Positions 24,089 through 31,088 of a stretch of DNA of 33,673 bases are shown here, one piece after another. Every line of letters starts with the position of its first letter. Position 1 is the first letter of the stretch. The notes beneath the pieces were generated by a model. It searched no databases. It saw only the letters and a list, made by a program, of their open reading frames with translations, and had not been told where the DNA came from. The stretch is from NCBI GenBank assembly GCA_003131315.1, contig PKUV01000192.1, positions 1-33,673 of the forward strand, given 5' to 3'. The translations under genes and the position numbers were made by a program. The DNA is from Acidobacteriaceae bacterium. Its GTDB lineage: Bacteria; Acidobacteriota; Terriglobia; Terriglobales; Acidobacteriaceae.

Positions 24089-24166
24089 CACTTTACGAAT
24101 TCTACCAAAAGTGATGTGCGCGCCATCCTTGACAGCGTTTTCCGCCGCAGGCTAGCGTCACGCAAT

Positions 24167-25351
24167 ATGTCTAACGATATTGATATGTCCGAGGTGGCCA
24201 GTGCCGCCCGCAACCCGGCTTCTTACCAGGGCACCTACTGGCTCGCGCTGGCCCTGACCCAGGGATTGGGCCCGTCGCGCATCAAGAAACTGATCGAGCA
24301 TTATGGCACCGCGGAGCGCGTTTTCCAGGCCAGCCTGACCGAACTCGAAGCTATGGGGATGCGCGCCGTTTCCGCGCAATCGGTGGTCACGGGAAAGTCG
24401 CTCGAACTCGCGCAGCAGGAATGCATCAAGGCGGCCGACGCGCGCGCCAAAATTATCTCCCTCAGCGATCCCGAATATCCGTCACGGCTGAAGGAAATTT
24501 ACGACCCACCGGTAATCCTGTTCGTGAAAGGAAGCGTCGAGGTGCTGGCCCAGCCCGGCATCGCGATGGTGGGAACGCGTCATCCCACGCCCTACGGCAG
24601 CGGCATGGCCGAACGCCTCTCGACCGACCTCGCCGCTCGCGGCCTCGTGATCATCAGCGGCCTGGCGCGCGGCATCGATACCTCGTCGCATCGCGGCGCC
24701 GTTGCTGCCAAAGGAAAAACCGTCGCCGTCCTCGGCACCGGAATTGACGTCATGTACCCCAGGGAAAACACGCGGCTCACAGAACAAATCGTCGCCCTCG
24801 GCGGCGCGCTGATCACCGAGTTCCCGGTCGGAACCTTTCCGGCCCCACAAAACTTTCCCATCCGCAACCGGATCATCAGCGGCATGTCCGCCGGCGTGCT
24901 GGTGGTCGAAGCCGCGGAATACAGCGGCACGCGCATCACGTCGCGCCTTGCCCTCGAGCAAAACCGCGACGTTTACGCCGTCCCAGGCAACGTGACCAAC
25001 AAGAATTCCTGGGGCCCGAACACGCTGATCAAGCAGGGCGCGAAACTCGTCGCCACCTGGGAAGACGTGTGGGAAGAGCTTCCGGCGGACGTGCAGGTCG
25101 CGCTCAGTTCCATGCAGAATGAATCCCCCGAGCCGGAAACCGCATCTCTATTTCCGGACGAGGTTACCTCGCCCCACGAAAAAAAGATCCTCAGATTGCT
25201 CAAGGCCGATGAATCAACGCACATTGATCAACTGGTCGAATTACTGGAAGCCGAAATGTCGTCGTCGGAAATATTTGCTGCGCTTTTCGAACTGGAACTC
25301 AATGGCAAGATACGCCAGTTGCCGGGGAAGAATTTTGTAAAAAGCTTTTAG
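24167..25351 (+). CDS. dprA: DNA-processing protein DprA
   Basis: This encodes 394 aa from ATG 24167; GTG 24116 and ATG 24185 are alternatives and none has a clear Shine-Dalgarno sequence. DprA loads RecA on incoming single-stranded DNA during natural transformation. Seen: an N-terminal helix-hairpin-helix-like region (LALTQGLGPSRIKKLIEHYG), the Rossmann core IAMVGTRHPTPYG, SGLARGIDTSSHRGA, VLGTGIDVMYPREN, FPIRNRIISGMSAGVLVVEA, and a C-terminal winged-helix (SPHEKKILRLLKADESTHIDQLVELLE). The stop TAG (25349-25351) lies across the first two heptamer units of the following element, so the last residues Ser-Phe come from repeat sequence. Confidence 0.95.
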   Translation: MSNDIDMSEVASAARNPASYQGTYWLALALTQGLGPSRIKKLIEHYGTAERVFQASLTELEAMGMRAVSAQSVVTGKSLELAQQECIKAADARAKIISLSDPEYPSRLKEIYDPPVILFVKGSVEVLAQPGIAMVGTRHPTPYGSGMAERLSTDLAARGLVIISGLARGIDTSSHRGAVAAKGKTVAVLGTGIDVMYPRENTRLTEQIVALGGALITEFPVGTFPAPQNFPIRNRIISGMSAGVLVVEAAEYSGTRITSRLALEQNRDVYAVPGNVTNKNSWGPNTLIKQGAKLVATWEDVWEELPADVQVALSSMQNESPEPETASLFPDEVTSPHEKKILRLLKADESTHIDQLVELLEAEMSSSEIFAALFELELNGKIRQLPGKNFVKSF

Positions 25352-25836
25352 CTGTTAGCTCTTGGCACTTGGCTCTTAGCTCTTCGCTTATCAACGCGGA
25401 GGTACTCATGAGGAACTACAGGGACCTGGTGGCTTGGGAAAACGCGCATCGGCTGACTCTGGCGGTCTACAGGAATACTCGATCGTTCCCCAACGAAGAA
25501 CGATTCGGGCTGACTAGTCAAATGCGTCGTGCGTCGGCATCGATTGCGGCGAACCTTGCTGAAGGTTGTGGTCGAAGGTCTGATGGAGAGATGGGCAGAT
25601 TCATCCAGATTGCAATGGGTTCGGGGGCTGAGTTGTCTTATCACTTCTTGCTGGCGCGAGACTTGGGTCTCCTCGAAGCCAAGGTTTATCAGTGTCTGGA
25701 TTCTGATTTGGGAGCAGTCATGCGCATGATGTCATCACTATCGTACAAAATCAGGAGTCACCCAGCGGATGAAAAAACTGGAGGCCCAGTAACGAAGAGC
25801 TAAAAGCTAATAGCCAAGAGCTAAAAGCCAAAAGCC
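25343..25836 (+). mobile_element. Putative element: inverted heptamer arrays flanking a four-helix-bundle gene
   Basis: The left arm (25343-25384) is six 7-nt units: AGCTTTT, AGCTGTT, AGCTCTT, GGCACTT, GGCTCTT, AGCTCTT. The right arm (25795-25836) is six units which, reverse-complemented, read GGCTTTT, GGCTTTT, AGCTCTT, GGCTATT, AGCTTTT, AGCTCTT. The arms match at about 34 of 42 positions with the same phase, so they form long imperfect terminal inverted repeats. Between them lies only the four-helix-bundle gene with its own ribosome site. A gene-less element with the same units lies at 30984-31088. Mobility is inferred; no target-site duplication was identified. Confidence 0.7.
25408..25803 (+). 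CDS. Four helix bundle protein (S23 / Avd-like family)
   Basis: This encodes 131 aa from ATG 25408, preceded by GGAGG at 6-nt spacing. Seen: YRDLVAWENAHRLTLAVYR, then FGLTSQMRRASASIAANLAEGCGRRS and FIQIAMGSGAELSYHFLLARDLGLL. The SI..N.AEG and GS..EL blocks are the signature of the 23S-rRNA intervening-sequence protein family (TIGR02436), whose fold is also that of Avd, the accessory protein of diversity-generating retroelements. The function is unknown for stand-alone members. The whole gene sits between inverted RGCTNTT arrays, and its TAA stop (25801-25803) spans two repeat units, so the last residues Lys-Ser derive from the array. Composition is visibly less GC-rich than dprA and topA. Confidence 0.92.
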   Translation: MRNYRDLVAWENAHRLTLAVYRNTRSFPNEERFGLTSQMRRASASIAANLAEGCGRRSDGEMGRFIQIAMGSGAELSYHFLLARDLGLLEAKVYQCLDSDLGAVMRMMSSLSYKIRSHPADEKTGGPVTKS

Positions 25837-25910: not shown

Positions 25911-28439
25911 TTGTCAAAAGGTCTAGTCATTGTCGAATCGCCGGCTAAGGCGAAAACTATCCAAAAGTATCTGGGCAAGGGATTCACGGTCGATGCTTCT
26001 TACGGCCACGTGAAGGACCTGCCCAAGAGCAGCCTCGGTGTCGACGTCGAAAACAATTTCGATACCGAATACGTCGTCATCCCCGGAAAAGAAAAGATCC
26101 TCGCCAAGCTGAAGAAGCTGGCCCTCTTGGCCGACACCATCTACCTTGCGCCTGACCCGGATCGCGAAGGCGAAGCCATCGCCGCTCATCTCGCCGACGA
26201 ACTCGGCGACGATTCGGGCAAGAAAAAGAAGAAGACGAAGGCAGGGACAAAGACAACAAAGACCGACAGCAAGGCGAAGGCGAAGACGAACGCCGGGGAT
26301 GGCGCGCGCATCCGCCGCGTGACCTTTAACGAAATCACGCAGCGCGCCGTCAAGGCCGCTTTCGAGCATCCCCGCGACATCGATCGCAACCTGGTGGACG
26401 CGCAGCAGACCCGCCGTGTGCTCGATCGCCTCGTGGGCTACCAGGTCTCTCCTCTGTTATGGGACAAAGTCCGCCGCGGCCTTTCTGCCGGACGTGTGCA
26501 GACGGTCGCGCTCCGCTTGATCGTCGATCGCGAACGCGAAATCAAAGCCTTCGAGAAAAGAGAATACTGGACGATTGACGCGAATCTCGCCGCCTCTAAG
26601 CCTCCTGCATTCGACGCCCGCTTCCTGGGCAAGGGCGAAGAGAAAATCGAAATCACGAATGGCGAGGAAGCGGAAAAAATCCGCCTGGCGCTCGAAAACG
26701 CCGATTGGATCGTCCGCTCAGCGGAAAAGAAAGAGCGGCGGCGCAATGCCACTCCGCCGTTCACTACCAGCAAGCTGCAACAGGATTCCTCCCGCAAGCT
26801 GCGCTTCAGCGTGAAGCGCACCATGATGATCGCGCAGCGCCTCTATGAAGGTGTCGAACTCGGCGACGAGGGGCTGGTTGGCCTGATCACCTACATGCGA
26901 ACCGATTCGACCCGCGTTGCCGCCGAGGCGATCACCGAGGTCCGCGAGTACATCACCAGCGAGTACGGTGCCAACTATTTGCCGGGTTCCCCCAATACAT
27001 ATAAGGAGAAGAAAGAAGCGCAAGCGGCGCACGAGGCCATTCGCCCGACTTCGGCGGCGCGCCATCCCGACCAGGTCAAGAAATATCTACAGGAAGACGA
27101 ATTCAAGGTTTACAAACTGATCTGGCAGCGCTTCGTTGCTTCCCAGATGAACCCCGCCGTCTTCGACCAGACGACCGTCGACATTGATGCCAAGTCCGGA
27201 AACGATGTCTTCCGGTTCCGCGTCACTGGCTCAGTTCCGAAGTTCGATGGCTTCCTGAAGGTCTATGAAGAGTCCAAAGACAGCAAGGACGAAGAAGACG
27301 AGGAACTGAAGCACAAGCTCCCGCCGCTTGAAGCCGGGCAGAAGCTTACGCTGAAGTCGCTTCTCCCAGAACAGCATTTCACCGAGCCGCCTCCGCGCTT
27401 CAATGAAGCTTCTCTGGTGAAGGAACTCGAGGAGCGCGGCATCGGCCGGCCTTCCACCTACGCCACGATTCTCAGCACCATCCAGGAGCGGCAGTATGCG
27501 CAGAAAATCGGCGGCAAGTTCACACCCACCGAAATTGGCCTGGTCGTCACCGATCTGCTGGTCGAGAACTTCAAGGACATTTTCGACTTCCAATACACCG
27601 CGCGCCTGGAAGAAGAACTCGACGAGATTGAAGAAGGCAAGCAGACGGGGAACGAAGCGCTCACCGAGTTTTACCAGAAGTTTTCCAAGGATCTCCGATA
27701 CGCCGAGAAGCACATGGAAAACATCAAGCGTATGGAGAAGCCCACCGACGAAAAATGTGAACTCTGCGGCGCGCCGCTGGTCATCAAGTGGGGCAAGCAC
27801 GGTTCGTTCTATGCGTGCAGTACCTTTGACAAGGAAAACAAGGAAAGCTGCAGGTTCACCAAAGAAAATCCCATCAATCTGCCCGACCTCGACTCGGCCG
27901 ATGTGCAGGAGACTGCGCAAGAGGAATACTGCGAAAACTGTGGCCGCGTCATGGTCCTGAAGCGCGGACGCTTCGGCCAGTTCATGGCCTGCACCGGCTA
28001 TCCCGATTGCAAGACGACGCGGCGGCTCGATCAGGGCAAGAAGGTGCCCGACATTCCGCTCGATGAAACCTGCCCACTGTGCAAGCGCAACCTGATCCTG
28101 CGGCACGGCCGTTTCGGCGAGTTCACTTCCTGCAGCGGATATCCCGACTGCAAATATGTGAAGCAGAACTTCATCGGCGTGAAGTGCCCGGAATGCAAGG
28201 AAGGCGAACTCGTCGAAAAACGCGCGCGCAAGGGCAACACTTTTTACGGCTGCGGAAACTATCCGAAGTGCAAGTTCACCTCGGCGGCGAAGCCGGTTGC
28301 CGAGAAGTGTCCGGATTGCGGACATGAATTTCTGGTGGAACGAATCCGCAAAGACGGACCGGTGATCGCGTGTCCGAATAAAGAATGCGATTACGAGCGG
28401 GCGGTGGAAGGCGTCGCCGGTTCGTCACAGACCGTGTAG
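25911..28439 (+). CDS. topA: DNA topoisomerase I (type IA)
   Basis: This encodes 842 aa. It relaxes negative supercoils through a 5'-phosphotyrosine intermediate. The start is TTG 25911, with GAGGA 5 nt upstream. Seen: the Toprim domain GLVIVESPAKAKTIQKYLG and DPDREGEAIAAHL, RRGLSAGRVQTVALRLIV, the catalytic block LITYMRTDSTRV with Y328 and R330, and EERGIGRPSTYATILSTI. After the core come five C4 zinc-ribbon motifs (first CELCGAPLVIKWGKHGSFYAC, last CPDCGHEFLVERIRKDGP), more than the three of E. coli. A lysine/threonine-rich insertion (KKKKKTKAGTKTTKTDSKAK) interrupts the Toprim domain after HLADELGDDSG. It lies directly downstream of the heptamer element. Confidence 0.97.
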   Translation: MSKGLVIVESPAKAKTIQKYLGKGFTVDASYGHVKDLPKSSLGVDVENNFDTEYVVIPGKEKILAKLKKLALLADTIYLAPDPDREGEAIAAHLADELGDDSGKKKKKTKAGTKTTKTDSKAKAKTNAGDGARIRRVTFNEITQRAVKAAFEHPRDIDRNLVDAQQTRRVLDRLVGYQVSPLLWDKVRRGLSAGRVQTVALRLIVDREREIKAFEKREYWTIDANLAASKPPAFDARFLGKGEEKIEITNGEEAEKIRLALENADWIVRSAEKKERRRNATPPFTTSKLQQDSSRKLRFSVKRTMMIAQRLYEGVELGDEGLVGLITYMRTDSTRVAAEAITEVREYITSEYGANYLPGSPNTYKEKKEAQAAHEAIRPTSAARHPDQVKKYLQEDEFKVYKLIWQRFVASQMNPAVFDQTTVDIDAKSGNDVFRFRVTGSVPKFDGFLKVYEESKDSKDEEDEELKHKLPPLEAGQKLTLKSLLPEQHFTEPPPRFNEASLVKELEERGIGRPSTYATILSTIQERQYAQKIGGKFTPTEIGLVVTDLLVENFKDIFDFQYTARLEEELDEIEEGKQTGNEALTEFYQKFSKDLRYAEKHMENIKRMEKPTDEKCELCGAPLVIKWGKHGSFYACSTFDKENKESCRFTKENPINLPDLDSADVQETAQEEYCENCGRVMVLKRGRFGQFMACTGYPDCKTTRRLDQGKKVPDIPLDETCPLCKRNLILRHGRFGEFTSCSGYPDCKYVKQNFIGVKCPECKEGELVEKRARKGNTFYGCGNYPKCKFTSAAKPVAEKCPDCGHEFLVERIRKDGPVIACPNKECDYERAVEGVAGSSQTV

Positions 28440-30983: not shown

Positions 30984-31088
30984 GGCTCTTGGCTATTAGC
31001 TGTTAGCTTTTAGCCTTTTGAACCGAGCGCATCAATCAGTTGTCTCTGGGCTGACCAGCTAAGAGCCAAAAGCTAACAGCTAATTGCT
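30984..31088. repeat. Gene-less inverted heptamer element, RGCTNTT family
   Basis: The left arm is GGCTCTT, GGCTATT, AGCTGTT, AGCTTTT and a longer AGCCTTTT (30984-31019). A 37-nt core follows (31020-31056), then a right arm of AGCT, AAGAGCC, AAAAGCT, AACAGCT, AATTGCT (31057-31088). The units are the same as those flanking the four-helix-bundle gene at 25343-25836. It fills the convergent gap between mqnD and the metallopeptidase gene. Confidence 0.9.

Follow-up and report, generated by a model that had tools for sequence, protein, structure and literature searches.

Short tandem repeats of seven nucleotides and proteins of the S23 family are both described in bacteria. The 23S intervening sequence of Coxiella is described, in the accessible part of the report, as carrying 28-bp terminal inverted repeats together with tandem heptamers GACAGAT (PMC4990558). 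Intergenic GGGAATC heptamers of Xanthomonas form many convergent inverted pairs (70 in Xcc and 75 in Xac), heptamer arrays are also described in Nostoc, and heptamer arrays are reported, without explanation, as over-represented in bacterial genomes; the available portion of the text leaves the role of the Xanthomonas and Nostoc arrays open (PMC4692102). TAACTGA repeats likewise make up intergenic heptamer arrays over distant taxa, namely Beggiatoaceae, cyanobacteria and Bacteroidetes, and the term S23 does not occur in the available text of that study (PMC4679880). On the protein side, the solved S23 structures are titled hypothetical or of unknown function; one of them, XCC0516 (PDB 2GSC), is encoded by Xanthomonas campestris, a species that has the GGGAATC arrays. 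The original prediction for the locus analysed here stated that no characterised system with its layout was known. We found no open PMC paper, among the top matches listed, that joins S23 with flanking heptamer arrays, and, among the matches listed, no paper combining S23 terms with heptamer terms.

The S23 gene and its two arrays

The window, i.e., the whole stretch of 33,673 nucleotides analysed here (contig PKUV01000192.1 of an Acidobacteriaceae bacterium), contains two short tandem arrays between the host genes dprA (24116–25351, + strand) and topA (25911–28439, + strand). The left, upstream array (25343–25384, + strand) consists of six in-register heptamers RGCTNTT, five of which are exact while one, GGCACTT, deviates. 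The right, downstream array (25795–25836, − strand) consists of six reverse-complement heptamers AANAGCY, all exact. Apart from the deviating left unit, the predicted layout of phased inverted arrays, six units plus six with one gene between them, was therefore borne out by direct observation. Aligned as arms (25344–25386 and 25793–25835), the two sides measure 43 nt each, are 86% complementary and lie 406 nt apart. The arrays reach into the neighbouring reading frames: the dprA stop codon (25349–25351) lies within the left array, overlapped by its first two units, and the stop codon of the enclosed gene (25801–25803) lies inside right-array units.

The sole gene of the array-to-array interval (25408–25803, + strand) belongs to the S23, or 23S_rRNA_IVP, family, scoring 111.1 bits with PF05635 (curated cut-off 33.8) and 108.2 bits with TIGR02436 (cut-off 24). 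Its start is likely the ATG at 25408, with GGAGG upstream (25398–25402, + strand), which reads as a likely ribosome-binding site; the listed TTG start at 25369 falls within the left array. Structure comparison identifies the product as a four-helix bundle. The model reaches a TM score of 0.96 to 2GSC (target-normalised) and has the fold of 2GSC and 2RLD, while Foldseek places it at TM 0.88 (target-normalised, E-value 0.028) to Avd 4DWL; a solved S23 homologue has five chains. No catalytic or transposase domain was found in the protein, the profile search returning PF05635 only.

Searching the window with RGCTNTTRGCTNTTRGC and at most 2 mismatches gave 17 matches against 0.31 expected, a number reached in 0 of 100 shuffles. 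Eleven of these lie at the S23 element and the other six at a second inverted pair of the RGCTNTT unit, which holds no gene and is located between two convergent open reading frames (left arm 30984–31014, + strand; right arm 31058–31088, − strand; both from the pattern search). Genome-wide the unit pattern has 208 matches, compared with 3 for a reversed control pattern, so that RGCTNTT arrays are not unique to the S23 gene of the window.

Occurrence of the layout at other S23 genes

The genome of the window contains six PF05635 genes. By eye, tandem units of 7 or 8 nt are present beside all six, the units are inverted-paired at each of the five genes readable on both sides (the sixth lies at a contig end), and the units of the six genes all differ. 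For larger samples each locus was scored by the strongest inverted match of one 250-nt flank to the other and was called positive at a score of at least 14, leaving out L001 and other loci whose flanks stop at contig ends. The sample from relatives comprised the best-scoring 30 plus 60 of at least 160 loci, together with the six of the own genome; since best-scoring loci were taken, weaker S23 genes are under-represented, and this holds likewise for the cross-phylum and later sets.

Inverted arms were found in relatives at 86 of the 94 usable S23 loci, compared with 14 of 275 mismatched flank pairs and 0 of 30 PIN genes. The best array period at these 94 loci was 7 in 67 cases, 14 in 12, 8 in 5 and 15 in 1, with none in 9. 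As a positive control, Y1_Tnp genes (REP/RAYT family) had arms at 24 of the 30 top-scoring genes in relatives, with a best period of 7 in 0/30; at these loci (L183–L212), the genes with arms lie between inverted, mostly REP-type palindromes. In the phylum sample, an S23 gene occurred in 144 of 297 genomes. Across phyla, arms were detected at 52 of 76 usable loci (80 sampled) against 8 of 226 mismatched pairs. The layout was seen in loci named Bacteroidota, Planctomycetota, Chloroflexi, cyanobacteria, proteobacteria, Fibrobacter, candidate phyla and others. It was also present at 36 of 43 non-redundant S23 loci of viral contigs, at 5 of the 10 loci read on cyanobacterial plasmids (two of these five being near copies of one region), and at 79 of 87 loci of a later set. 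Pooling all but the later set, 194 of 240 S23 loci have arms, as opposed to 2 of 324 control intervals shifted by 850 nt at the same loci; when a 7-nt period is also required, the figures are 148/240 and 1/324. The pooled 240 include orthologues and duplicate viral contigs. S23 loci without arms at the threshold numbered 8/94 in relatives, 24/76 across phyla, 7/43 in viral contigs and 8/87 in the later set. Most of the S23 homologues tested are thus flanked by arrays, and arrays were not equally common around the unrelated genes and intervals examined, so that neither of the two outcomes named beforehand as refuting was encountered.

Several plasmid loci deserve mention on their own account. 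The S23 genes L401–L404 of cyanobacterial plasmids have short inverted arrays (7 or 8 nt) and adjoin annotated integrase or tyrosine recombinase genes. On a Pseudanabaena galeata plasmid (L410, 1998–2357), cas6 and cas4 enclose an S23 gene whose RGCTTTT arrays are very long; despite the different phylum, this unit is almost the one seen in the window. A survey of CRISPR systems, as far as the accessible text goes, names 23S rRNA IVP in a figure legend on adaptation-module associations (PMC10910872), an entry that insertion of S23 elements might explain.

The repeat unit follows the protein

Of the 143 loci that show a 7-nt period and an inverted score of at least 13, 118 have an upstream-arm unit that phases as AGNNNNN. 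Mean unit similarity between S23 pairs of the same genome (0.511, n = 65) is about that between pairs of different genomes (0.515, n = 3338), and unit similarity increases the more alike the proteins are (Mantel r = 0.42, 0 of 2000 permutations; r = 0.39 on the 118 loci). As judged from these alignments, the unit is element-specific and tracks the S23 protein rather than the host genome.

The dprA-topA junction illustrates this at one site. In 24 genomes of the genus, 20 of the 22 readable junctions contain an S23 gene, and by eye their units fall into five types: RGCTNTT in 3, AGCTNTC in 9, AGTTNTC in 2, AGCTNCT in 3 and CGAGCTN in 3. The S23 protein of the window is 80% and 72% identical to those of the two other RGCTNTT carriers and 49–54% identical to those of the nine carriers of AGCTNTC; in this group the topA segments reach 90% identity. 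These identities indicate that S23 protein and unit travel together and not with the flanking DNA. The predicted unit RGCTNTT therefore holds for the window element and does not hold as a fixed unit, each element having its own. As a side observation that is suggestive only, the AGCTNTC share of arrays is lower in hosts of RGCTNTT cassettes (n = 3) than in hosts of AGCTNTC cassettes (n = 9; Mann-Whitney p = 0.018).

A candidate residue for the third base of the unit

The relation between protein and unit was examined residue by residue, with counts restricted to loci having a clean AG-phased 7-nt unit (118 of 185 kept; 52 of 87 in the later set). In the 118 loci the alignment column most informative on base 3 of the unit is the residue directly after the motif NIAEG. 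Cys at this position accompanies AGC in 38 of 47 loci, Gln accompanies AGT in 28 of 29 and Lys accompanies AGG in 8 of 13, while Tyr is divided between G (5/11) and T (5/11). In the window the conserved motif reads NLAEG and is directly followed by a TGT (Cys) codon (25567–25569, + strand), a candidate specificity residue which agrees with the association of Cys with AGC. In the structure model the post-NIAEG residue ends helix 2, ahead of the loop to helix 3.

With average-background correction (APC) this column comes third for base 3, and in comparisons of pairs at equal protein identity it comes first, with 0.34 against 0.21 for the next column (0.33 against 0.19 with 163 loci). A rule limited to Cys, Gln and Lys was fixed before the held-out loci were examined; it was right at 15 of 21 new loci compared with 6.6 expected, a result obtained in 0 of 10,000 permutations. 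By residue, it was right for Cys in 6/7, for Gln in 9/13 and for Lys in 0/1, the base at the Lys locus not being callable. Seen afterwards in the held-out set and outside the rule, His occurred with G in 6/7 and Tyr with G in 4/5. In viral contigs read by eye, Gln goes with T in 2/2 and the pairing of Cys with C is mixed. A counter-example exists at the dprA-topA junction, where the two AGTTNTC carriers retain Cys. Furthermore, a tree test of the code gave only 2–3 supported independent pairs, so shared ancestry may inflate it. Overall, the residue after NIAEG is a candidate predictor of the third base of the unit.

Pairing between the arms

The protein was originally proposed to bind the hairpin formed by the arms. 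A related account takes the element as an RNA device: the transcribed arms would form a long stem that has the S23 gene as its loop, and the protein would bind this stem and control its processing or stability. The layout does match that of the 23S rRNA intervening sequences, the Coxiella one combining 28-bp inverted repeats and heptamers in the accessible text (PMC4990558). The S23 fold also resembles Avd of the diversity-generating retroelement ribonucleoprotein, and the window segment folds better than its shuffles (z = −3.14), as does the gene-less pair (z = −2.43). If pairing were the main constraint, however, it should be visible at the variable unit positions. At 119 loci the mean score of co-variation between arms at these positions was 20.36, compared with 19.84 after shuffling within phase (p = 0.07); 8 loci were individually at p ≤ 0.05, and matching in order is found for instance at L054, L061, L292 and L045. 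Arm mismatches of the G-U type are not in excess over the A-C type (135 to 123, p = 0.49), i.e., there is no bias towards a sense RNA, and the letters of the unit are kept as sequence, beyond mere complementarity. The arms match because both are built of one unit, in general with no matching beyond that. Hairpin pairing as the main constraint was rejected on these two tests, and we consider the RNA account unlikely. An across-arm identity of 0.67 against 0.35 expected at variable positions, apparently in favour of pairing, was set aside as biased since the register had been chosen to maximise identity. No sign was seen of arms kept as a base-paired hairpin; the lack of general co-variation and of G-U bias fits recognition of sequence better than recognition of a hairpin.

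Inversion of the cassette

Two loci have, in one species each, a cassette that is turned round in place while the flanks are conserved, amounting to five pairs (L054 versus L040, L044 and L066; L045 versus L043 and L108). In addition, L119 and L127 have orthologous flanks and S23 genes of opposite orientation. These cases could be taken to mean that the element is an invertible switch, whose arms let the S23 gene flip and so change its own expression or that of the neighbours. Against the 5 inverted pairs stand 172 collinear ones, all 20 dprA-topA copies have one orientation, and ordinary recombination between inverted repeats gives the same outcome; a switch is therefore, in our estimate, very improbable.

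Remnants and turnover at orthologous sites

Three S23 sites were followed through 24 genomes of the genus. At the L003 site, readable in 22, the spacing is S23-sized in 9 and short in 13. The six short alleles read consist of AGTTCTC hairpins (2), REP-like palindromes (3) and an S23 gene truncated between arms (L382), the last being a deletion derivative observed directly. REP-like palindromes and S23 arrays replace one another between species at this site. Among the short alleles listed by eye for the other two followed sites, some have arrays built of other units, one has the remnant of an S23 gene next to a single array (L394), and further ones have other palindromes or show nothing clear. 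In the L390 allele (G009, L005 site) a foreign gene with palindromic repeats of its own comes after an AGAGGTC left arm, giving a nested-like arrangement; by eye, this gene resembles a GIY-YIG nuclease.

Gene-less arrays also change unit at orthologous places. The gene-less site of the window (30984–31088) has other units in 3 of the 6 relatives read, and at four further gene-less sites a tandem array is present in 17 of 20 relatives' stretches, most of them with another unit (by eye). At the L027 site, whose flanks are presumably fusA-like and rpsG-like, a CGAGCNG, TAGCTNC, TTCGCTN, RGCTNTT or 8-mer array is found, depending on the species; six relatives carry four unit families unlike that of the window genome, and the seventh, G022, carries none. 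G022 is the sole member of the genus without an S23 gene, and the two unit patterns counted have 0 and 1 matches in it. Four S23-bearing genomes are also array-poor for the two patterns taken together (G005 with 6 matches, G007 with 5, G012 with 6 and G015 with 5), and S23 gene count and array number show no correlation in the genus (Spearman 0.17, p = 0.43). As for movement, no near-identical S23 genes (at least 85% over 200 nt) with different flanks were found among 248 loci, so that movement itself was not seen.

Part of this picture would also be expected if the array hairpins were host-level slippage products or terminators into whose loops S23 genes insert. Gene-less inverted arrays are common, as the 208 pattern matches of the own genome indicate, arrays occur at fixed intergenic sites whether or not an S23 gene is present, and the number of S23 genes is uncorrelated with that of arrays. 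Against this, the units of same-genome S23 genes differ as much as units from different genomes. Units track the protein, also in the held-out test, and the S23-less G022 is nearly devoid of matches, even though counts are also low, at 5 or 6, in four genomes that do have S23 genes. Insertion into such landing sites is accordingly rather improbable, somewhat more so than the RNA account.

Proposed mechanism and implications

The reading that we favour, with a probability of roughly 0.6, is that the S23 gene and its two inverted short-tandem arrays form one compact selfish unit whose protein recognises its arrays. The S23 protein would bind, by its sequence, the unit that makes up its own arrays, with the post-NIAEG residue reading the third base of AGNNNNN, and would hold or mark both arms, acting probably on DNA. 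Host replication or recombination enzymes may then copy, convert or invert the arrays, both arms staying of one type, and arrays of the protein's type would come to occupy other intergenic sites. Gene-less pairs would represent non-autonomous derivatives, arising by internal deletion and maybe maintained in trans. Physical binding, upkeep and spread of arrays driven by the protein, and the choice of host enzymes for cutting and copying are what we infer here. The proposal that S23 proteins at large are sequence-specific readers of short tandem arrays, with a residue-to-base code, and drive their upkeep, conversion and spread is tentative, and we place it a little below even odds.

If this proposal is true, S23 elements would form a class of selfish DNA that is widespread and for which no transposase is known, and they would be the source of the surplus of intergenic heptamer arrays that stands unexplained in bacterial genomes, Xanthomonas and cyanobacteria among them. 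Many phyla have S23 or "four helix bundle" proteins, and the link to arrays supplies this family with a target; conversely, it gives heptamer repeats a likely agent. The link would also make the 23S intervening sequences one instance of a broader kind of element, and Avd of the diversity-generating retroelements would appear akin to a family of repeat-recognising proteins.

Comparison with known systems

The S23 element resembles REP/RAYT systems in having a small gene between inverted, palindrome-bearing arms, an intergenic location and many gene-less copies; such dispersed gene-less terminal repeats are seen here in the 208 genome matches and in the pair at 30984–31088. It differs in that a Y1_Tnp (HUH tyrosine) transposase was not found in the gene between the arrays, which matches PF05635 only, and in that its arms are tandem arrays of 7–8 nt with an element-specific unit instead of single palindromes. 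As to recognition of its own repeat by the protein, correlation and held-out prediction were observed. The analogy to REP sequences and their RAYT transposases drawn in the original prediction is hence partly upheld, by gene-less hairpins, truncated S23 copies beside arms and the match of protein and unit; recent transposition was not seen among the 248 loci, nor did one element occur there at different sites as transposable elements do.

With the 23S rRNA intervening sequences the element has in common the S23 protein family and inverted terminal repeats (window arms of 43 nt, 86%). Unlike these sequences, the window copy has dprA and topA as its neighbours and is not part of a 23S rRNA gene; eight other S23 loci (conserved-flank Bosea, Rhizobium and some viral contigs) gave no Rfam match to rRNA at curated thresholds. 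The likeness to Avd is one of fold alone, at 10% sequence identity. As for heptamer arrays, the TAACTGA study differs from the S23 arrays in dealing, in its available text, with one unit, in direct repeats and one indirect (PMC4679880). A search of viral contigs for GGGAATC arrays returned 3 loci, and no S23 gene was recognised in L398, the sole one with open reading frames examined. The apparent joint evolution of the S23 protein and its unit points to S23 genes with inverted arrays as a so far undescribed type of selfish DNA.
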